A DNA stretch of 64,000 bases from positions 648,290 to 712,289 of the forward strand of contig JAIWZP010000009.1 in assembly GCA_025201375.1 (NCBI GenBank). Direction: 5' to 3'. The DNA is from Gongronella butleri (taxonomy: Eukaryota > Mucoromycota > Mucoromycetes > Mucorales > Cunninghamellaceae). Shown here piece by piece: positions 39,506 through 52,423 of the stretch (the first letter of the stretch is position 1; every line of letters begins with the position of its first letter). The position numbers and the translations under genes were made by a program. The notes beneath the pieces are model-generated. The model worked only from the letters and a program-made list of their open reading frames with translations, searched no databases and was not told the DNA's origin.

Positions 39506-41471
39506 TCAAATTGGGATATTCTATAAAGAAAAAAGAAAAAAAAAATTCCCTTGTGAGTGCGATGCCCATTTTTCAATGTAGTTGTCACTCACGTTGGTCT
39601 CGCAATGGTGTTTGATGTTTTCAAACACCTTTAACATTTTCCGACGCGCTCCCAGGGCGGATACGCCCTTGTCTTCCAGCTGCTGCTCGTCCAATTTCAC
39701 GATGTCTTGCCATCGCATCGTCTCAAAGTTGGGCGTGTACTTGTGCAAGCGCAGACTACGCAGCCAAGCGGGGATGTCTGTGATGTTTTTACAAAAAGAT
39801 GAGATTTTGTGCTCGACTTCCGTTGATCGAGAGGTTTACCTGTCAGGATGTCCATGTTGACGACATTGTCATTGTTCTTTTTTGTGTCCTTTTTGTTGTG
39901 ATGCTTGTTGCCATGGTACTTTGTGTACTTTTTGCGGCTCGAGTGGCTCTTGTAGGAAGAAGCTTCGCTATGATCGCTCATTGCGTCGTCTCCAAAGGCG
40001 TCGTGTGGAGCGAGGTACGTGCCGTATTGCTGAGTGTGCGTGTGGTGGAGCTTGTTGCTGTTGTTTTGCTTTGTGCGGGATGTTTGGCCATAGCTGGCGG
40101 GGGTGGACAGCGACGGGACCGGGGATGTGTTTTGTGCCGAGTAGTACTGGGCAAAAGCGGCTGCGGGTGACAATTGAGCCGAGTTTTGCGGTGGGCGTTG
40201 CGCGGGGACGTATTGCGGAGCGCGATAAGCGTAAAATTCGTCGTCGTCCTCTTCTTCTTTTTCGGCGAGAGTGGCAATGCGTGGCAATGGCTTGTCCGAG
40301 TAAGGGGCAAGGTCGCCTGCTGCCGATGGGGTGGTCCAGGGCTGGAAATGGTGATGGCTAGCAAGGGATGTGGTGGAGCTGTTGCGATCGCCAAAGAGAT
40401 CGGCGGATTTGGGCCGTTCAATGACGCTGCTCGCGCGGTCACCGATGCTGCCGACCATGGCACTATTATTGTTGTTGTGATTGGCATTGGGCGAGGGTCG
40501 CTGCTGCTGCGATGAGCGCCATGCCGAGAAGAAATCAGGCGAATCCATATCGACGCCCGATGACGGCCGCGAATGCGTCGACCGCGGGAATGTCGCAGTG
40601 CGTGGCGATGTGAGCGACGTCGAGTGCGTTCCAGAAGGCCGCGGCACGCTCAATTGGCTGCCGCTGCCGGCAAATTGGTGGCTGTACAGATTTGCCCCGC
40701 CCAAACCAACGGGATCGTCCATGTCCCCCAGCGCAACAGAGTGTCGGTCAAACGCAGGTGTCGACCGGCTTGCAGGATGGCTCGAAGCAAGCTTGTTGCC
40801 GCTGCCGCTCGTGCTCGTTGGAGCCTGACCCGTCTTGTAAGGGAGCACATTCATTAGCCACTGACTCGCTTCCTTTTCGGCTTGCTGGAACGGCGTCGGA
40901 TCTGCATTCAAAATTAAAAAAAAAAAAAAAAAAAAGAGATCAGTGACCGCCCCGCTTTCCTTTTTTTTTCATTTCTGTTTTTCGCACTTTATCGCGTTTT
41001 CGAGCCAATTTTCGAGCCAATTTTTTCTTTTTTTACCTGGATCGGAGAGCGTCATGACCGAGTCGCGTTTCTTTTGCTGTTGCAAAAGATTCATGAAGAA
41101 GCGTGTCTGCACAGGGGTCGAGTGTTGCAGCAAGGTATAAATGGTGGCGGTGCGTTCGGCATCAGACAGATAACAAAACCATTGATTCACGTGCTGAAGC
41201 TCCTCTTTGAAGCTCTGGTCCAATGTCACGGCCGCCATGTCCTCCAGGCACCGCTCGTACCGCTGCAGGTCCTCGTACGCCGCTAAAAAAAATTAAAAAA
41301 AAAAAGTGGAGAAAGATGAGAAACACTGTACCTGAAGTTTCAAAATTGACAAACAGCTTTGCCCGCTTCTTTCTTCTTACAATGCTCAGACAGCTGGCTT
41401 TGTCTTGCTCGCAACACCTCGGACGCAGGGCGCATGGTGGAAGGATACGTGCGATATTCGGCAGCCTTCAT
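39506..41471 (-). CDS. VTS1: Vts1/Smaug-type RNA-binding protein (SAM domain)
   Basis: Five exons (41381-41471, 41037-41282, 39840-40901, 39593-39777, 39506-39520) give about 532 residues. The N-terminal conserved block reads [15 protein letters not shown], then [20 protein letters not shown] and [20 protein letters not shown], as in fungal Vts1. A Ser/Gln/Asn-rich middle region of about 330 residues follows. The SAM domain ([20 protein letters not shown], then [20 protein letters not shown] and [15 protein letters not shown]) is nearly identical in pattern to yeast Vts1. It includes the Ala-Leu-Gly-Ala-Arg-Arg-Lys segment that grips the CNGG loop of target hairpins. Vts1 recruits Ccr4-Not to degrade mRNAs. 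The end is ambiguous. A strong GTGAGT donor and T-rich acceptor give a 15-nt last exon ending Asn-Ile-Pro-Ile; without splicing the frame stops near 39521. Confidence 0.88.
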
Positions 41472-42439
41472 AACGAGCAAATAAAAAAAAAACCAAAAAA
41501 AAAAAAAACAGATAAAAGGGGAGGGAAAGAAGAAAAGAGGAAAAATGTGCGCACGAGGGGTAGAGCGTGTTCCCCTCTCTCTTTTTTGTGTCTGAGCTTC
41601 GGCGTTTGAAATGGTTTGCCTGAGCGCTCTCGATGCGATGCAGGTGTTACGAACTTTTTGTGTTTGAAAAATCTAGATTGTGGGCAAATTACCTGTTGCC
41701 AGCTCCTTCAATGAGAGCCAGAGCCCTTGTTGCACAAAGAAAATAAAAACAAGGAGACCCGCCAATTGCTCTGTGGGCGGCGGCGTCAAGCAAAACACAG
41801 GCTGCAAAAAATCAACACGTTGCCAATGGCATCCAATTGCCCTCCCCGCCTCCCTGGACCATGCCTATTTTTTTTTAGAAGCGTGTCGTTGATCGGATGA
41901 TCGGCATGGAACGTGAACGGCAAACTGCAACACCCATGGTTCTCGCAAAACAACGCGATTTGCTTGCTGACAACCAAGAAAAACAAGGCGCATGCATCAG
42001 AACGCGCGCCACTCACGCGTCAATCGCGCTCCTTTTGTTCTCATCATTGAAAAAGAACCCCATTGATCCATGACGGCCCTCGGGGGGAAATGCAAAAAAG
42101 TTTAACGCATGAAAATTAAAGGAGAAAATGAGTGTGCATGCGGCCTCACCTAGACGATTACCATATTTGGCCACGAGCCATGCTGCGCCAGATGCCAATG
42201 TGGCCCAGACCCATCTTTTTAGATCGAAGAAAGGAGCAAAAGAGATTGCCCTGGACATAAAATGGGCTATTTTTACAAAAAAAATGTCTATTTTTTTATT
42301 GTGAGGGCTATGCATCAGATGTCAATAATGTACAGAGATGGGGTGGTGCAAAGAAGAAAAAAAAGGGGTTGGGGGATCGGGGGAAAAAAAAGAATTGGAC
42401 GCGTCGCGACGTCTTTTTTTTTTTTTGTCAATTTCGGCC
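41472..42439. other. Region with possible small spliced gene, strand unclear
   Basis: Two incompatible readings exist. On the minus strand, MSRAISFAPFFDLKRWVWAT and LASGAAWLVAKYGNRL (about 42150-42258) look like the start of a small membrane protein, and LLVFIFFVQQGLWLSLKELA (about 41693-41770) follows a TTTTTTGCAG acceptor. On the plus strand, a TTTTTTTTAG acceptor at 41878 opens KRVVDRMIGMERERQTATP followed by LAKQRDLLADNQ, ending at 42073. Neither could be joined into a full model by phase. I recognise no family. At least one small gene is plausible. Confidence 0.3.
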
Positions 42440-44331
42440 TTAGTTGTGGAAGCCGGGGACATGGACGACAAAGTTTTCGACATTGACCTCATTGCAGTCA
42501 TCGTCGGGGATGCCAGATTCGTGGACGTAGACAGCAAAGTCGGTGGTGTCGTCGAGGGCGACCATGGGGTGATGCCAGATACCTTCGCGATAGTTGACGC
42601 CCTGGGTGGAGGAGGCGACAAAGGCCTTGAGGGTGGACATGTCGGGCTTGTCGTCGGCGCCATTTTGGGCAACGGCAACGAGGTAGCCGCGGGTTTGGCC
42701 GTGGGTCATGGGGATGAAGAATTGGGACGAGTACGGGTGGCGCTCGAGCAACTTGATGGTGAATGGCAGGCTGTTGGTGGGTGCGCAGCGGAAAATGCAC
42801 ATGTTGACCTTGCCGCCATTGTTGGGGTGGTTGTTGACAATGTTGGCGACGTGGTGGTACTTGAAGGCCGTGCCCTGGTTGGCGCCCGTCACCTTGTAGT
42901 TCTTGGCATCCTTGGTGTCCACATCAATGACATCGCCAAAGGGAGCAAAGGCATCGGTCGTCAAGGGTTGCGCAATCATCACGTTCTTGGGGCTAGGAAG
43001 CACAAGCGGAAGCGACGGCAAAGTCGCGCCCTCGCGCACACCATAGAGACGCACGCGCTTCAGAGCACCATCAGGAATGATGCTGACCTTGACGTGCGAA
43101 AACACCTTGTCCGTGTGCAGCGTGTCGAATTGGAACAAGCCGTGCGCACCAACCTTGGATTTGCCAACAATCGTCGTCCACGTCGCATTCTTGGGCAATT
43201 CATCGTTGGACAACGTCGCCTCCAAAAGAATCGCGTTGGGGAAATTGCCATGGAAATCAGACCTTTGGAAAAAAAAAAAAAAAAGGTTAGCTCTCTTTTT
43301 TTCAATTTTTAACATTATTCCCCTTTCCAGTTTTTTCTTCTTTTCTCTTTTTCTTCCTTTTCGCTTCTTTTCTTTTTCCCCCCATCTTACGTGTCCAATT
43401 CCGCCTTGAGAACATGACCCTTGGCACCCAGCTTGATGATTGCGTGATCGGCGTGGTTCTCCTCGCGCGAGCGCTTGCTCTGCCAGCCATCATCGGCGGT
43501 CTTGCCACGACCAGGCAACAACAGGTTGCTGCCAGGGCCATAGTGCTCCTCGGTGACCTCAACGACGCGACCACCGTGGCCGCTGTAAGCCAGATCGAGG
43601 ACCTCATTCACATCCTTGGGAAGCACGGGCTCGACGGTGCCATACACGCGGAAACGCGCAATGCCGCCATCAGGGTGGTTGTTCAAGCGGACGTGCGTGA
43701 ACACGGCCGACGCCGAGTCCAACACGCACACATTGTGGCACGAGGGAGGCAGATCCACCTTGGGCAAAACCTCGACCCACTGCACCGCATCCGAAAGCGC
43801 ATCTTGGCCCTCGGCAACAAACGCAGCCTCCACAGACGCAGCAGGCGCTTGGTTGCCAGTGAAATAGTGCGTGTCAATATCAAAACCGCGGATCGTGCCA
43901 GGGAAACCAAGCTTCACAATCGCCCAGTCGTGGCTCGCATTGTGACGCTTCGACTCCCAGCCGTCCATCCACGCGCCAGTCGCTTAAAAAAAAAAGGAAT
44001 AGATGGCATGAGTCGCGGCCGGATCAAGCAATGGATCCATTCAAAAAAAAAAAAAAAAAAGGTACCCGATCTAACTTACCAACAAAGCGACCAGGGCATG
44101 AGATGGGCGCAGCAGGGTTAATCATGTTCGTGGCAGGAGCAAAGAATTCGTCCGTCACCTTGACAATTGAGCCGCCAATAGCCGAGTTGGCGAGATCTGC
44201 GTGTATAAAAAGAAAAAAAAAAGCGATCAACAAAACGTCTTTTTTACTTTTTTGTCTTTTTTTTTACCAATGCACTGAGCCAAAGGGGACGTGGAAAGTT
44301 GCTCGTAGGGGATACGTTGGAAGGACACCAT
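42440..44331 (-). CDS. Allantoicase-ureidoglycolate lyase fusion
   Basis: Four exons (44268-44331, 44080-44196, 43391-43982, 42440-43262), phases agreeing throughout, encode about 531 residues. Residues 1 to about 340 are allantoicase, with its two tandem jelly-roll repeats: DLANSAIGGSIVKVTDEFFA, GAWMDGWESKRHNASHDW, then a second DLAYSGHGGRVVEVTEEHYG and DDGWQSKRSREENHADHAII. Residues from about 350 are ureidoglycolate lyase: MIAQPLTTDAFAPFGDVIDV, LLERHPYSSQFFIPMTHG, GVNYREGIWHHPMVALDD and DDDCNEV. Allantoicase splits allantoate to ureidoglycolate and urea, and the lyase releases glyoxylate and a second urea. In budding yeast these are separate genes (DAL2, DAL3). No frameshift or stop separates the halves; the join lies inside one exon. 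It is transcribed divergently from the neighbouring Fanzor gene, and uricase is 7 kb away. Confidence 0.9.
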
Positions 44332-44737
44332 ACTTGTTAAAAGGGGATATACAAAAAGAGGAGGGGGGAAAAGGTGTTGTAAAAAAAAAAAAAAAAAAGA
44401 GGGGAAAAAAAGACAAAAGGGCAAAAATGAGGGGCAAAGCGGGCCCCTCTTTATAATTGTAAACGCACGATAGACAATGGCCAATCACAGCACGTTTATA
44501 CCCAAATCGCTTCAAACCCCGCGCAATAGTGTCTAAAATTTTCCTTATGGAATACCAGCAAGCTGATTGGCTGAGATTCCTTGAAGTGCTATTGTCACCG
44601 ATTTTTTTTTTTTTTTTTTGTGGAAACACCGATTCTAATCCGCAAGGATTGACTTTTTTCAAAACGCGTCGGAGATACAAAAAGAGGGGCGTGCCCAAGA
44701 TTGTTTATTTTTGCTTTTCTTTCCCACTTGCTCCTCT

Positions 44738-47045
44738 ATGGCAAACTTTTCATCATATATCAAGCGAAAACAACGACAGCGAGCTGAAATTGTGCGTCAG
44801 CAAGCGGAGCGGCAGGCAGCAGCGGCAGCAGCGGCAGCGGCAGCGGCGCAAGCGGAGCATGCGGCGCAAGCTGCACTGCAGGCGACAGAACAGCCTGAAT
44901 CGTCTCGCATGGCCCAGGCTCGCGCACAGCAAGGTGATGCCACTGAAGCAGGCACGATCCAACGTCAAGAAAGCGAACCAGCGCCAGGTAAGTGTGTGTG
45001 TGTGTGTGTGTTTGTGAACTGGGCTGACCCACCCTTTTTCTTTTTTTTTTAGCCAAGCGCCAGCGCACTGGCAAGGCACGGTCCACGGCCAAGCGGCGAC
45101 AGAATGCCGACGAGAAGGAGGGGAAAATCCAAGCCAAAGATGCACACGCGGAATCGATCAAGGAGATGACGACGGTGGTGCCGAATCCTTGCGCCCAATG
45201 CACGCACGATAGCAAGGAGGCCGACGCGCAGGCCGACGCCATCCTTTGCGCCCAGCCCGATCACGCCGATCAGCCTGCAGCCGCTCATGCACGCCTGATG
45301 GCGAGCCACGAGGAATATAGTCGGCTTCGTGCCCTTGCTTTGTTGCGACTCGACCAAGCTCGCACGCACGAACGCACAACAAATAAGCTTTGTCCAAGCT
45401 ACAAGCCTCGGCAGAAGGTCCTTACGCAACAGCGGATGGGCGAGGGTGTGAAGCTGCGGTTGATGACGGTGAAGCACGGCCTGCAGACGCTGCTGCGCAC
45501 GGACATACCAGAAAACGATCAGGCGGCCATCCTCCATGCCATCGGGCATGTCGTCCATTACAATCGATGCCTCGTGATCCACGCCATGGCCTTTGTCCGC
45601 TTTTACCTCACCGCCATCTTGGAATCCGGTGTACATGTGCCACGCGCCCTTTTCTCGCCCGCATTCTTCATTGGTGTCTTTCAACTCTTGGCAGGCGACG
45701 AATGGACCAACACAAAGATCTTTGAGGGCGCCCAACGGGACACCTTGTTCTACATCTTTGCTCAATTCCGCCAGAGCTTCCCGCACATCATCATGGGCAA
45801 GATCCCCTCATCCAGCGGCCGTCCCGCGTCTCGCTTTTCAAACATCACCGACTACACCGCCATCGAGCTCGCCGCATCCATCAAGAATCACGTTGTCGAA
45901 GACTTTGCAGGCTTCTATATCAGCTATCTACAGGGCGAAATGATGCGGCAACACGAGGTAAAAAGAAAAAAAAGAAAAGAAAGAAAAAAAAAGCTGAACC
46001 CTTTTTTTTTTTTTTTAGGAGCTAAAGCCCGGTCATGCGCGGGCTTACGCGATTTACGCGTATGACCGAGCGGCGAACGACGAGAAATTTGATGCGGAAT
46101 TGCCGACCCCTAGGCTTCCACAGGAGCGCAAGGAAGCGTTGCAGGCGACGGCTGAGTCTTTGGCGACGGCAAGCGAGGCAAGATGGCGCCAGGTGCATGC
46201 CAATATCATGGAAGAGAAGCGGCGCATTGCAGCCGCGACGCGTATTCGACAAGCGCAAGCGCAGGAGATGCAGCGAGCCACCTTGGCCGAGCGAGAGCGG
46301 CGCATTCGAGCGACAACAGGGCAGGCGGAGGGTCCACCGGTGGACGAGGCCATACTGGACCAAAGCGACACGGGCACCATGCCTGGGGACGTGGATGCAA
46401 GCAGCGAGCCAGCCTCGGATGTGGCTGACACGGCCAGCGTGCCTGGGGACATGGATGCCACGACGACATCTCGCGTGTCTGTCACGACGGCCAGCCTCAC
46501 GCGGCACCCGCACCATTTCCTCAAGGTAATGTATGAGATCCTGCAGACCATGGAGTCCTGGGGAGACGCCGATGAAATCCAGCCCGCCGAGCCACAGGAA
46601 AGCGTGACCTTTCCTTGGGTCTTCCGCCAATTGGCCGACAATGTCACGGAATGGACACGTCTCAATCGACGCAAGCGGACACGATTGACGCACCTCGTCT
46701 CCGACCTCATCAACAAGGGCGATGCCATCGACCCACAGCGCCTGCCTTACAATCTGTCGGTTGCCTCGCGATTCGCCATCCATCATCTTGGCCAGGACAC
46801 CATCGACCGCATCCACCAGGGCCAATTCACCCCCGACACCATCATCGCACGCTCGCGAGTGCGCCTGTTCACCATCGCCCCCGTTCCAGCATTACGATTC
46901 AAATTTATACACATCAGTCACAACGCCCTTATACAAATTTTACGACATTTCAATCTGGCAACGTATGCCATTGGCCCAGAGGCGGCGCCCCCTGATGGCG
47001 AAATGCATCCCGTGCTGGAGATTTTCAACTGGAAAAAGCTACGAC

Positions 47046-47086
<41 letters not shown>

Positions 47087-48473
47087 TCTGACGCGCTTTT
47101 TTTTCTTTCATTTTTTTTTGAACTTAGACCCGCCGGCTCGGCTTTCGAGAATGCATTTGTCACGGACGCCTACTCCGTGGGCATGCTGTTCAAGAAGGCT
47201 GTGCCAGCGGACCGCCCGCCAAAGCTGACGCTGGAGGACTTTGACGCGACCGACCTTGACACGTGTCGTTTTTGGGGCATTGACCCCGGTGTGACGGAGG
47301 TATACGTAGCGGTGGATGGCTCGTCGGAAAGCCATGGCATTTACAACACGCTGCCGCCTGCCATGCCATGTCAATTAGCACACATCCGCCCTGTTCCTGG
47401 CACCGAGGCATGGCGTCCATTTGACTACTATGCAGCGCCGATCAGCTCATGCTCCGTGCGGTGCGCCGAGGATCCCGTGCGCCTGCCTGTCCGTACCCCT
47501 GCGCGTCCACGATCATTGTCCGCTCCCCCACGCAAGTCGCATCCAATGGCCCTCCGCCTACACAACCGCCATGAGATCCGCCGCGTCTCGTCGGCTGAAT
47601 TTGACCGAATGACGGGCCGCCACATCACCAACAGACGTATAAACGCCATGAAACAGACGCCCATCGGCGACCAGACCGTCACCAATATCGAGTCGACCAT
47701 CTCCACCGCCAAGACCGCGCGAATTGACCGCATGACACGCCATGTCCGCGAGCTTTTGGCCGCTTTGCCACGTCTGCTGCCTTTTTACGGTCCTCATCAT
47801 CAGGCGCTCCGCTTTTTAAACTACCAAGGCAAGCAAAAAGCGACGGCCAACATGGTCAACGTGCTAATCAATGGAGGCAACAAGTACCCGCGCCGTGACG
47901 ACGACACGATCTCCATGAGACGATCCACGGACAAGCCCATGAGGTAAGGCAAGCGCGTCCAAAGCGCCATTTGTCGCGAGACTGACCTCCTTTTTTCATT
48001 TGGCACACAGATGGCGCCCCGCCCCATTCGATGCGAACCCCCAAAAATGCCCGGTGGTGTGTCTTGGCAATGGCCGGTTCGATCGCGTCCGCTTTCGCGG
48101 CAAGTCCCATGGGCATGCAAAGCTCCTAAGACGCGCACTGCTACAAGCTCAACAACAGCATCAGCTGATTGTCGTCGACGTCGACGAGGCATACACGTCG
48201 AAAACGTGCTCAACCTGCGGCCAGCGAGCATTGAAGAATCTGAAGATTTGGCCGCGCGACTTTACGTCCGCGTACTCGTTGCATGGCGTGCAAATTTGCA
48301 ACAATTGTGCACGTCCATGGCAGCGTGACGTGAACGCTGCGCGGAACATCCGATCCCTGGCCATCCTCTCCATCCTCTCCCGCACTGTCCTCCCTCAGCA
48401 CCCGCGAATGCCATCCTCAAGACCCGTCGTGTTTACCAAGGCCTATGATCCCAAAGCACAATATTTCCACTAG
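44738..48473 (+). CDS. Fanzor: eukaryotic TnpB-like RNA-guided nuclease
   Basis: Five exons (44738-44987, 45053-45957, 46019-47046, 47128-47943, 48011-48473), all in phase, encode about 1153 residues. The C-terminal third is a TnpB-type RuvC nuclease. RuvC-I is FWGIDPGVTEVYVAVDG (D780). A displaced glutamate, VDVDEAYTSKTCSTCG (E1059), directly precedes a zinc ribbon with C1066/C1069 and C1096/C1099 (QICNNCARPW). RuvC-III is QRDVNAARNI (D1106). The usual RuvC-II position, near CPVVCLGNGRF (about 1013-1023), lacks an acidic residue at the expected place. This matches the rearranged site reported for Fanzors. The first 720 residues include an Ala-rich helical N-terminus, CAQC and charged coiled-coil segments. 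Fanzors are transposon-borne and cut DNA under guidance of an RNA made next to the gene. Here the triad is intact and the introns are host-like. Confidence 0.88.
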
Positions 48474-48660
48474 CAAAAATTGGAATGTTTGCGCTTTATT
48501 TTTATCAAAATAAAGGTAAGAGTGAGGGACGGGGGTGTGGGGCGAACGTGCTCCCCTTTTGTCGCCATGGGGGAGCATAGCAAATGGATTCGTGCGTTCT
48601 CATTGGCCACTAACCTTTATTTTTTTCCTTTTCTAGTGCAATAGAGTCTATTGCCCGTAA
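48474..48660 (+). other. Fanzor 3' flank: 3'UTR-type intron enclosing a hairpin
   Basis: After the Fanzor stop, a GTAAGAG donor at 48516, a CACTAAC branch site near 48608 and a TTTTCTAG acceptor ending at 48636 define a 121-nt intron with no coding role. Inside it TGCTCCCC (48549-48556) pairs perfectly with GGGGAGCA (48570-48577) around a 13-nt loop. Directly after the acceptor comes a 15-bp palindrome, CAATAGA-G-TCTATTG (48639-48653). Guide RNAs of TnpB and Fanzor proteins come from the 3' end of the nuclease gene, so this is a candidate scaffold. That function is inference. Confidence 0.4.
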
Positions 48661-51204
48661 ATATGTCTTTTTGCAGAACCAGGGCTAAATAATGCCTTTT
48701 GGGACGCCCAAATGCATCCCATTCAGGCCATCCTTCCACGGAGCAGAGGCAAAAAGCAGCATTTAAGCCTTTGGTCTCAAAAGCGCTTTTCTGCCGCATG
48801 GTGGCCCCAAACAAGGCGTTCTCATTTGTCAGCTGATGGAACACACATCATGCAACATCTGTGTTACACATCCCATTTCTTTGTCTTTCTGTCTTTTTTT
48901 TTTTTTTTTTTTTGTGGGCACGCTCGGCCACGCGTTCCAGCGCCCCAGTGCCATTTGACGCGATCAAAAAATGCAAAAAAAGGCGCGGATTTTAAAATCC
49001 CGCGCTGTGGCATAATAAAAAGATCACTCTTTGATCCCTTCAGCCACGTTATTCGACTGCTGAGCGGAGGTGCGATATCACTGCAATAAAAAAAATCAGG
49101 ATCAAGTGCATCGCGTTCGCGCAAATCTCCAAAATGGCGATTTTTGCATGTTACAAGGCCGCATCGCGTCAACCTGGCACGAAACAAGTCCCAAAATGCG
49201 TTCCAGCGTGTTGCAGCCAACTGGAAACACCCCGTGGAAGGCACCTTTTTGGACCAGGCGCAAATCATTGCCGCGCAAAACACGCAAATCAAAATGAACC
49301 GTGGCGAGCTCTCAAACCAAAAATCACGCCAAACTTGTACACGAGATGCATCGTAAGGTGAAACGATGAAAAACACCCAAAAAGAATTGGATCGCCCTGC
49401 TGGTTGACGAGCAATGGGCAATTTTAGATTTAATTTCAACAGCAAATTGCATAAGAAAAACGCGCTCATAGATCTCCGCTGACACATCCACTAGCTCGAG
49501 AGACGCCGGGTGCATGGGTTTGATTGAAGCAGACGCGTCTAACTCGACTCTAGACGCGCTTCATCACGCGTCGAAAATTATATATGATTTTGAAACCGCA
49601 TCAAAAATGCCAAAAATGCACTTTTTTAATTGATCAGCCATGTCCACGTACGCAGCGAGCCACACTCTTTCTGATGGTGTGAGTTTCTCGGAGATACAAG
49701 CACTTTTCATCGAGATGCCCTTGACCTGAAAATAAAGCCTCAGTCTCATTTTGCGTCAGAACCAGTCAATGAACCCCTGGTTTTTATTCGACTTTCGTCG
49801 GTGAATGAGATACGTGTATCATGTGGTTGAATGGCGTGACGATTACTCGACCTAAATTTCGTCATTTCCAATTCCTCGACTGCACCCCTTGGAAAAAATC
49901 GTGGTTTTGAAAATCGTGCTTGCGCGCAACCCGGCGATCGTGATGCTGCGTGAATGGGCTCATACGAACGTAAAAGGCTGAAAGCATCGATTGGTTGAGT
50001 GGACTTACCTGTAGGCTGTCAATTTTTCACCAGTAATCAAAAAAATCGATAAAAATCTCTGTTTGCCATTTTGTCTGCAAACACACGCGCTGATCTCCAT
50101 TATTGCTGCGTGAGCATTCGAGTACAAAAAAAGCCGGAATCTTTCTACAGCTCACTTAAAACATATGTAAACTTTAAAGCATGGAGCTATGCATAAAAAT
50201 GACAAAAAATACGCCAATTCAATTTTTCTGGCGTTACAGCCATCCGATCGTGAGCAAACTTGGGCCCGTCGCTCTTCATGTGTACTGAAGGAATCGGTCA
50301 AAGTTTGGGCAGTCAAAGCTGGTCTGCGGAAAAGATACGCTTGAAAAATCGAATCCCAAGAGTGCACGACAAGCCGTTTGCCGCGAAATCTAATAAAAAG
50401 TCAGCAATCTTCCGTTTCAGTATCATATACATCAGTTTGGGCTCACTTGGACGAGTTCATCCACGAGAACTCGCAAGGTGAAGCGTGAATCAGTCAAAAA
50501 ACCACATTTTAGTCGTTATTTTCTCGTTTGACAGAGAAACAATCAATTGAAACGTGCGAGATCTCACGAAAACATCGAGATGAGGTAGCCAAGAGCCTTG
50601 TGCTCTAATGACTATTATACAGCATTGCGCAAACTTGGCAAATTTACTATAAGCAACTCGTAAAAAAAGGCAAATCCTCTTTTTCCTGACGCGTTGTAGC
50701 TTTCGGCGCGTTGCCTGTGACATGCCTTTTTTTTTTCTTGTAGGCCACGGACCGTGCGTGTAAACAGAACCCCAAATCAGCCCGCCCAATGGCATGTGCA
50801 TCACAGCTTGCGCGGTGAAAAAAAAATTAAAAAATTAAAAATTGATCACCACGGCCTTTTGACGTGGTCCCCTTTTTAGCCTTGGGCGCCGTGCACGGGC
50901 GACTGACACCAGTTTTTCGGAGACGAGAGCGGCGTACCAATTCTGATAGCTATTCATTTGTCACATTACCGGGTCTAGCCGGTATATGTGTGCTATCATT
51001 GGTCAGGCATGACGCACGAAACAAGGGTACAATTCATGCTCCAGTTCAATTTCAAGGTCGATTTTTTTATTTTAAGAAGGTTATGTTACAAGGTGTTGGT
51101 ACAAAAAAAAATAAAACCCAAAAAAGCACCAAAGACAAGGGGACGCATCCTCGGTACAAAAAAAAAAAGTTGGAGATCTCTATTTGACGCAGATCAGAGC
51201 AAGC
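48661..51204. repeat. Gene-free stretch with dispersed repeats
   Basis: No supported gene. About 49335-49920 is the partner of 34320-34910 (see that entry) and contains the GACGCG-n8-CGCGTC hairpin at 49553-49572. The remainder (49950-51200) has short AT-rich frames only. The poly-T run near 48893-48914 and A runs near 51100-51170 are the only other features I can see. Confidence 0.45.
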
Positions 51205-52423
51205 TTAAAGCTTGGAGGCACCCTTGCGAGCAACGGTGGCGGTGATAAGACCTAAAAAAGAAGGGAAAATTCAAAAATCAGCTCATTGTTCCGTGTACCC
51301 TTGCCCAATGGGTCCCTTTTTTTTCCTTTTTCCATGGTGCTTACCGGAGGGGTCGGCCTGGGGGTGGTAGACCTCGAGGTTCTTGCCCTCGTTGTTGATG
51401 CCAAACTTGCCCAAGTCAACGCCAACATAGTGCTTGTTGGGCAGAGCATACGAGACCTCGGCGATCTCGGGGTAGGCCTCCAAGGCGCGGGTCTGCATGA
51501 GGTACATGGTGGCCTGGACGGACGCGGAGTCGTCAGTGGCAAAGGTGTCGCAGGTGATTTGGCGCATGCCCTGGTGGATGACGGGGTAGTTGATGTTGCG
51601 CAGGGTTTGCGAGTCGGAGGCGGTGAAGGTCCACTCGCAATCGACGGCAGTGGAGAAGATGCGGTCCCAGACCTCGGGCAGGGAGGTGTATTGGTCGCGA
51701 TAGAAGCCGTGGAAGGCCGAGCCGGTCGTCTTGAGCACAAGAAGCTTCTTCAGGCCAGACTTGATGGTGATCTTGTTACCAGCACGTTGGTGCACCACAG
51801 AGGTGGTCTGGACATCCTCGCCGTCACGGACGAACGAGTGGGGGTGGGGCTTGCCATCGACAACCAGGCGAGTCCACTTGTGCTTGATGATGTCGACGTA
51901 AGCGTGCGAGATGTGCGCATACTGCTTCAAAACGTGCTCAGTGATCTCCTGGGCAAACACCTCAATGTTGTCGACGTTTTGCGACTTCTTGGCAATGATC
52001 TGCACAGTGTTCTTGCAGGTATCTGATGCAAAAAAAAAAAAGCAAAAAAAAAGAACCCTTGTCAGCGCCAATTCCTCCTCTTTTTCCCAAATTCACCCCA
52101 ATGCGCCTTCCCCCCCCCCCAATTCCTTGTCCTTTTGCTTACCGGTGGTGACGACAACCGAGTTGTCGGCGTGGGTGTAAGAGGTGGCAATATCACCATC
52201 CAACAACAAGCGAACCTAAGAAAAAAAACGACAAAAAAAAAGGCCGTGTGAGTAACCTTTGTTCTTGTCGCGTGGTATGCGTCTTCGCCATCGTCCAAAA
52301 AGGCCAACTTACGGTGAGTTCAGTGCAGCGCTGGGTCTGGCCCTCGCGGTAGACACGCATAATGCGGACAAGGTCCTTGCCATAGCGGGTCGCCTTCAAG
52401 TAAACGTTGTTGTTGGAAGCCAT
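51205..52423 (-). CDS. Urate oxidase (uricase), peroxisomal
   Basis: Four exons (52313-52423, 52143-52215, 51345-52022, 51205-51251) encode 302 residues, the normal size. Uricase motifs are plain: NNNVYLKATRYGKDLVRIMR, DGDIATSYTHADNSVVVTTD and DTCKNTVQIIAKKSQNVDNI, with the catalytic Lys and Thr positions present. Further on are HKWTRLVVDGKPHPHSFVRD, KTTGSAFHGFYRDQYTSLPE, YPVIHQGMRQITCDTFATDD and PNKHYVGVDLGKFGINNEG. The protein ends in SKL, a type 1 peroxisomal targeting signal, encoded by the short last exon. It oxidises urate to 5-hydroxyisourate. Together with the allantoicase-lyase gene at 42440-44331 it marks a purine-nitrogen utilisation neighbourhood. A pair of inverted GATAAG sites lies about 410 bp upstream. 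Confidence 0.95.

Follow-up and report, generated by a model that had tools for sequence, protein, structure and literature searches.

The window analysed here is a 64,000-nucleotide stretch of the genome of Gongronella butleri (assembly GCA_025201375.1, contig JAIWZP010000009.1, positions 648,290 to 712,289), a member of a genus that paper titles place in the Cunninghamellaceae, Mucorales; it is the end of its contig in a genome of 33 Mb and 110 contigs. On its forward strand lies a gene for a Fanzor nuclease, a eukaryotic relative of the CRISPR nucleases (44738–48473), carried by an element of about 4.1 kb that spans about 44506–48638 and whose terminal features (its ends and a predicted terminal intron) fall outside the gene coordinates. 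As a Fanzor gene, it is one more member of an already known group. Judged by its bases, however, the end of the element seems to coincide with a 3′ splice site; a specialist might not expect a transposon tip of this kind, which would also act as a splice acceptor.

The Fanzor gene and its product

The gene consists of five exons, all of whose four introns are GT-AG:

44738..44987, + strand, Fanzor exon 1, with the start codon at 44738
45053..45957, + strand, Fanzor exon 2, from frame joining and spliced alignment
46019..47046, + strand, Fanzor exon 3, from frame joining and spliced alignment
47128..47943, + strand, Fanzor exon 4, with D780 of the DPG motif at 47282–47284
48011..48473, + strand, Fanzor exon 5, with E1059, the C4 ribbon, D1106, and the stop codon

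A first-pass annotation, made from the letters alone, had proposed a five-exon, 1153-residue product with D780, E1059, D1106, and a CxxC/CxxC zinc ribbon, uninterrupted by stops or frameshifts, and each of these points stood: the rejoined exons yield 1153 codons plus TAG with 0 internal stops, the joined frame is open throughout, and the residues are where they were claimed to be (E1059 at 48186–48188, D1106 at 48327–48329, and the ribbon as CSTC at residues 1066–1069 and CNNC at 1096–1099). Spliced alignment returned identical exons, with the same window protein as its query, so that this is a consistency check only. The splice layout was further upheld by a paralogue elsewhere in the genome (locus L012; 61% identity to the window protein over 1133 aligned codons), for which spliced alignment gives an equal five-exon layout and whose public model (P0002) begins at a methionine homologous to the window start, and by the Pfam ribbon, which falls in exon 5. 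The best protein match, G. butleri BC940DRAFT_178544 (879 residues; 100% identity over the aligned part), is a public model that spans the middle of the protein and lacks the ribbon; because it ends before exon 5, the public entry is without the catalytic residues E1059 and D1106. The Fanzor gene is real and intact-looking.

The window protein has a single Pfam domain, Cas12f1-like_TNB (PF07282), in exon 5 (E 1.3e-12; 48.1 bits, cut-off 26.3). A single-sequence search of the PDB with this protein was effectively empty, its one hit (E 4.1) being a chance match, and a six-sequence profile had Guillardia theta Fanzor1 (GtFz1; 9cer) as its top match (E 1.9e-9), followed by other TnpB/Cas12f-like chains, matched via the ribbon. 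In the same profile search, Spizellomyces Fanzor1 was only a weak match (E 0.35) and the Fanzor1 of Parasitella, whose species P. parasitica also belongs to the Mucorales, was not found among the 26 matches listed.

In the profile alignment, D780 (of the DPG), E1059, the ribbon, and D1106 align with the DPG, the glutamate, the ribbon, and the third catalytic position of GtFz1. The third acidic position, after the ribbon, reads R1105-D1106 in the window and is aligned with an N in GtFz1, an asparagine also remarked upon in passages of PMC11423790. The glutamate beside the ribbon is invariant in 12/12 aligned sequences, the window included, and in each of the 12 the segment where the TnpB-type glutamate would be expected has G[ND] instead (GN from residue 1019 in the window); the Fanzor-type arrangement, with E1059 next to the ribbon and aligned to GtFz1, was therefore borne out. 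DPG and this alternative glutamate are Fanzor signatures in the passages seen of Yoon et al. (PMC10711439). Taken together, the identification as a Fanzor1-type nuclease gene of G. butleri is supported.

Further comparisons of the protein were less informative. Relatives numbered 3 of 7,995 scored candidates for residues 600–1153 and, for a homologue (P0003), 1 of 5,539 (itself), so that we judge fungal coverage to be thin. A structure prediction of P0003 on a three-row alignment reached a mean predicted local distance difference test score of 32, and NCBIfam matches were far below cut-off.

Genome-wide searches recovered 20 ribbon matches, the window's included, plus one fragment found by its right end (L037), for a total of 21 Fanzor-like loci. 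Five families were defined among them: A (L010, L013, L016; three copies, about 95%), B (L014, L015; two copies, 90–93%), C (L022, L023; two copies, 97%), D (L017, L018; two copies, 98%), and E (L012 plus the truncated L020). The window element is apparently single-copy in the DNA searches, in which copy counts are lower bounds. The same searches, with the same limit, were also inspected for solitary element ends, like the “ghost” elements of S. punctatus, and gave only known loci besides L037; a strict pattern search for further element ends returned two loci, both already known.

In the gene models, every copy that includes the region retains the catalytic and zinc positions, except the broken copy L021, which has Q in place of the alternative glutamate, along with frameshifts and a stop; L009, L015, L020, and L024 also have frameshifts, and L020 a stop as well. 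The ratio of nonsynonymous to synonymous substitution rates (dN/dS) is 0.28, 0.45, and 0.32 for the three family A pairs, 0.41 for the family C pair, and 0.53 for the family D pair, values that poorly modelled N-termini may inflate in these recent pairs (the family B pair was skipped owing to a frameshift). For L010 versus L014 the ratio is 0.17, and for the window gene versus L012 it is 0.13, with saturated dS. The Fanzor protein has been under selection, which is no proof of present activity.

Sequence and selection fit a window Fanzor that could be active. A rival reading, in which the gene has been domesticated or is decaying and encodes no working nuclease, we regard as decidedly unlikely. 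Its apparent single-copy state would suit such a fate, as would the TDG motif of the WED domain, which reads TDA at residues 740–742 (TDG is found in L012, L009, L010, L013, L014, L016, L017, and L018). However, the recent copies L022 and L023 also have TDA, the frame is full, the catalytic and zinc positions are kept, and dN/dS against L012 is low.

Two further features of the family concern other loci. In L010 (L010:3540–4270), a large alanine-rich insert, missing from the window gene, continues the reading frame of the Fanzor protein, and spliced alignments have a gap at this place in the other copies of families A, B, and C; an “intron” of ~700 bases in the models of families A to C was rejected as a model error, since L010 has the open insert there. 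A second, separate Fanzor lineage consists of two copies (L025 and L027; 93% alike over 3.4 kb) that have DCG where the window lineage has DPG, together with a LIDEYR[TN]SKVCPVC stretch.

Element ends and the predicted terminal intron

Outside the gene, the features of the element are as follows:

44503..44505, + strand, candidate left 3-bp target-site duplication, CAA, the same letters as 48639–48641; single-copy, uncertain
44506..44737, + strand, left end and 5′ leader; exact left boundary inferred; reads ATCGCTTC, not CAC
48494..48515, + strand, 9-bp hairpin CTTTATTTT-TATC-AAAATAAAG with AATAAA, ending at the donor; similar in L012 and L020
48516..48636, + strand, predicted 3′-terminal intron: donor GTAAGA, branch CTAAC at 48610–48614, T-rich tract, acceptor CTAG at 48633–48636
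48637..48638, + strand, last two transposon bases, TG of CTAGTG; placed by motif, the boundary coming from copy comparison in families A–E
48639..48641, + strand, right flank CAA, candidate second (right-hand) copy of the duplication; any guide would start here or just after

Copies within families A to D align end to end, after which the matching stops abruptly. On the right, this break falls at YAG (Y, pyrimidine) in 11/11 elements with a copy-compared boundary, from five families, and TG follows the terminal YAG in 10 of the 11 (the exception is L014). Left ends of families A, B, and D read CAC[AT][GT]CAAAA, and that of family C differs; across families A, B, and D, CAC stands on the left in 7/7 and GTG on the right in 6/7. 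The window element has GTG on the right and, as its likely left end, ATCGCTTC; for each of its leader motifs, CTGATTGGCTGAGATTCC (44563) and GTGCTATTGTCACC (44586), families A, B, and D have an equivalent. Duplications of 3 bp are perfect in four of the seven two-ended copies (CAA, GAT, ATA, and AGA), match at two of three bases in two, and are missing in one. The CAC...GTG frame was picked after several frames had been inspected, and a scan of 49 terminus placements (within 3 bases) gave it four perfect duplications, any other placement yielding ≤2. In two family A copies on different contigs (L013 and L016), the same eight extra bases, GCGTCCAG, lie just outside the left end.

CAC..GTG ends and 3-bp duplications are the criteria by which fungal EnSpm elements are assigned in passages of PMC12730594, and the CACTA criteria in those of PMC4158355 are close to them. 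Families A, B, and D resemble EnSpm/CACTA in both respects; the Fanzor element differs in having no transposase of its own, nor room for one beside the Fanzor gene, its only large gene. CACTA/EnSpm-type transposase domains exist elsewhere in the genome (nine matches, eight over cut-off), and a comparison of their ends with those of the Fanzor elements, tried with the flanks of one family, found no exact inverted match of >12 bases. We call the carrier EnSpm/CACTA-like and non-autonomous, rather than a full member of that group. Fanzor1 carriers named by Bao and Jurka, in the passages seen, are Helitron, Mariner, IS4, Sola, and MuDr (PMC3627910).

At the right ends, a donor, a branch motif, and an acceptor follow one another in the correct order and with host-like spacing. 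All 17 elements examined have a GTAA[GA] donor after the stop codon, as well as a CTNAY branch motif 17–34 bases before the element end; YAG stands at the very end in 14/17, including all 11 whose boundary comes from copy comparison. The sequence between donor and branch varies: many elements have a GCATAG-like motif there, and nearly every one then has ATTGG/TTGG; a T-rich tract separates CTNAY from the terminal YAG. Among internal introns of eight gene models, the window's included, 20/31 have CTNAY within 60 bases of the acceptor (the count leaves out six model errors of about 700 bases), compared with 17/17 terminal ones, which are therefore at least as canonical. GTAAG occurs within 75 bases after the stop in 11/12 representatives (not L022), versus 46/1520 control windows taken from the loci (3.0%); as the element families are related, this count reflects conservation and not independent draws, and the GTAAG counted for L018 is an upstream one and not the terminal donor. 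The separate lineage of L025 and L027 is without the donor–branch–acceptor arrangement. In the window, the AATAAA-bearing hairpin (48494–48515) could set splicing against polyadenylation.

Part of this pattern would be expected of an ordinary Fanzor element in which CACTR plus an A-tract mimics an intron end, GTAAG is inherited but unused, and the mRNA ends after the AATAAA at 48509–48514. The complement of CACTR is YAGTG by definition, and the window element, L012, L019, L037, L017, and L018 have an AATAAA next to the donor. Families A, B, and C and L009, L011, and L021, however, have no AATAAA before the donor. Seven two-ended copies allow the acceptor to be separated from the repeat: their left ends, reverse-complemented, have YAG in 1/7 and any AG in 3/7, versus YAG in 7/7 right ends, so the terminal repeat alone does not force YAG. 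Donor and branch motif, moreover, lie outside the terminal repeat, yet are present in 17/17 elements whose surrounding sequence is poorly alignable (mean column identity 40%). We rate this explanation as unlikely and the terminal splice acceptor as well supported as sequence.

The host DNA beyond the right ends bears on another possibility, namely that the main role of the right end is in the expression of the adjacent host gene, with ATTGG (a reversed CCAAT box) and the T-rich tract acting as a promoter or 5′ leader. An apparent sense-gene start codon lies 82–206 bases past the right end in 8/16 inspected flanks, and ATTGG occurs near right ends and also near the left ends of the window element and families A, B, and D. 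No such downstream gene is seen in the other 8/16 flanks, the window's among them; the near gene of the window, an allantoicase/ureidoglycolate-lyase gene, is divergent and on the left; and the donor is left unexplained. A mainly promoter-like role is, in our estimate, rather unlikely, albeit less so than an ordinary element with a chance intron end. Under the splicing interpretation, since half of the same flanks lead to sense start codons, a spliced read-through transcript would continue into the 5′ leader of a host gene. Four of the right-flank genes have Pfam matches above cut-off (DnaJ, Spt4, TCP-1, and CTNNBL), those at L037 (UEV), L018 (RPC82 HTH), and L012 (Nop14) are below it, and that at L020 has no match. 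An orientation bias of sense-gene flanks was considered and dropped, as divergent frames also occur on some left flanks.

Predicted splicing and the proposed guide RNA

We consider it probable that the locus is an EnSpm/CACTA-like element with a complete Fanzor1 gene, in which a predicted terminal intron and a guide RNA would be alternative outcomes of one transcript. In transcripts that read out into the host, splicing would connect 48515 to 48637 and directly fuse the 3′ end of the Fanzor mRNA with host sequence, and unspliced read-through RNA would keep the right end and the flank and could supply the nuclease with a guide-bearing wRNA/reRNA; one primary transcript would yield spliced mRNA or guide RNA, not both. 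By cutting the empty site, the nuclease would then favour retention of the element, as has been proposed for TnpB.

In the passages seen of Yoon et al. (PMC10711439), Fanzor1 reRNAs include the terminal inverted repeat (TIR) and the target-site duplication (TSD) and extend about 15 nt beyond, and in those of Saito et al. (PMC10432273) the host flank is the guide. If this published right-end pattern holds here, splicing would remove the guide scaffold, inside which the splice acceptor would sit. The narrower proposal, that the intron and the guide-RNA right end share bases and that the spliceosome decides between a host-fused nuclease mRNA and a guide RNA, is tentative, and we hold it to be possible but doubtful.

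Several observations weigh against the combined interpretation. The acceptor half is partly forced by the terminal repeat, the families are related, so that element counts are not independent, and the window element seems to be single-copy, with its own ends placed by analogy. L021, L011, and L024 (ends set by eye) are without YAG; L019 has a donor and no recognisable end; the donor of L020 and L022 is GTAAA; and L017 and L018 have an earlier GTAAG, their terminal one lying 163/166 bases past the assumed stop. For the RNA, a consensus fold over ten right ends gave zero consensus pairs, from an alignment that misplaced even the donors; single-sequence folding of right ends was unremarkable (z-scores −1.9 to +1.4); and seven gene pairs, compared for the imprint that a guide RNA might leave within the gene, showed no excess conservation of silent sites near its 3′ end. 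With no conserved fold and unremarkable z-scores, the guide-RNA part is without structural support, and this half of the proposal rests on analogy. An Rfam search over 40000–52000 at E up to 1 gave three weak matches below threshold, none of them at the right end.

Splicing might, conversely, make the guide: the mature wRNA would be the end of the Fanzor mRNA spliced to the host flank, with the intron not part of it. The splice junction would coincide precisely with the element end, ahead of the guide, and in the window element as well as in L012 and L020 the donor directly follows a hairpin. That hairpin is, however, seen in these three only, silent sites near the stop show no constraint, and the Fanzor1 guides reported in passages of PMC10711439 keep TIR and TSD in the scaffold. 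We view this variant as highly improbable.

Relation to known systems and significance

The window protein resembles the Fanzor1 nucleases GtFz1, SpuFz1, and PpFz1, as described in passages of PMC10432273 and PMC11423790 (which give Parasitella parasitica as the source of PpFz1), in its DPG, alternative glutamate, C4 ribbon, and third catalytic position, and in the placement of the gene within a transposon with host flank after its right end. It differs in its 1153 residues, long N-terminus, five coding exons, and the predicted intron at the transposon end. Term look-ups in Fanzor papers, including PMC10432273 and PMC11423790, yielded nothing on an intron or splicing at Fanzor transposon ends, nor did those in Bao and Jurka (PMC3627910) on introns at Fanzor element ends; among the titles and abstract starts covered of the Fanzor, TnpB, CACTA, and IStron literature, with most subscription journals outside that coverage, none describes such an element end.

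The closest parallel may lie in the IStrons, which combine a group I intron with an insertion sequence, in some cases with TnpB, such that one transposon end serves for splicing and also marks where the guide RNA lies. There, the whole element is the intron, and a conflict between intron and guide RNA in bacterial IStrons has reportedly been described (Zedaveinyte, 2024). IStrons self-splice (PMC4227781), in contrast with the window intron, which would be spliceosomal, about 120 bases long, and confined to the right end; the three weak Rfam matches of the 40000–52000 search include no intron family, whether group I or other. In Spm/dSpm elements, YAG|TG of the CACTA repeat serves as a splice acceptor, a likeness to the present element; splicing there excises the insert from a host gene, whereas here it would join the element to the host.

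Elsewhere in the window, one open frame (42443–43489, − strand) combines an allantoicase repeat with a ureidoglycolate lyase domain, which suggests a fused gene for two steps of purine degradation. A search of the window for tRNA genes found none.

The role of Fanzors in their own hosts is an open question in the field. Two warnings follow from this locus: a public gene model, such as BC940DRAFT_178544, can miss the catalytic exon, and splicing in the native host may remove the guide RNAs that genome-based prediction assigns to Fanzors. If the proposed competition is true, the element would be a eukaryotic, spliceosomal counterpart of the IStron conflict between intron and guide, one that bacterial IStrons and eukaryotic Fanzors would have reached via different splicing machinery, and the donor would offer a direct handle on it, in that a single point change should alter how much mRNA is made relative to guide RNA.

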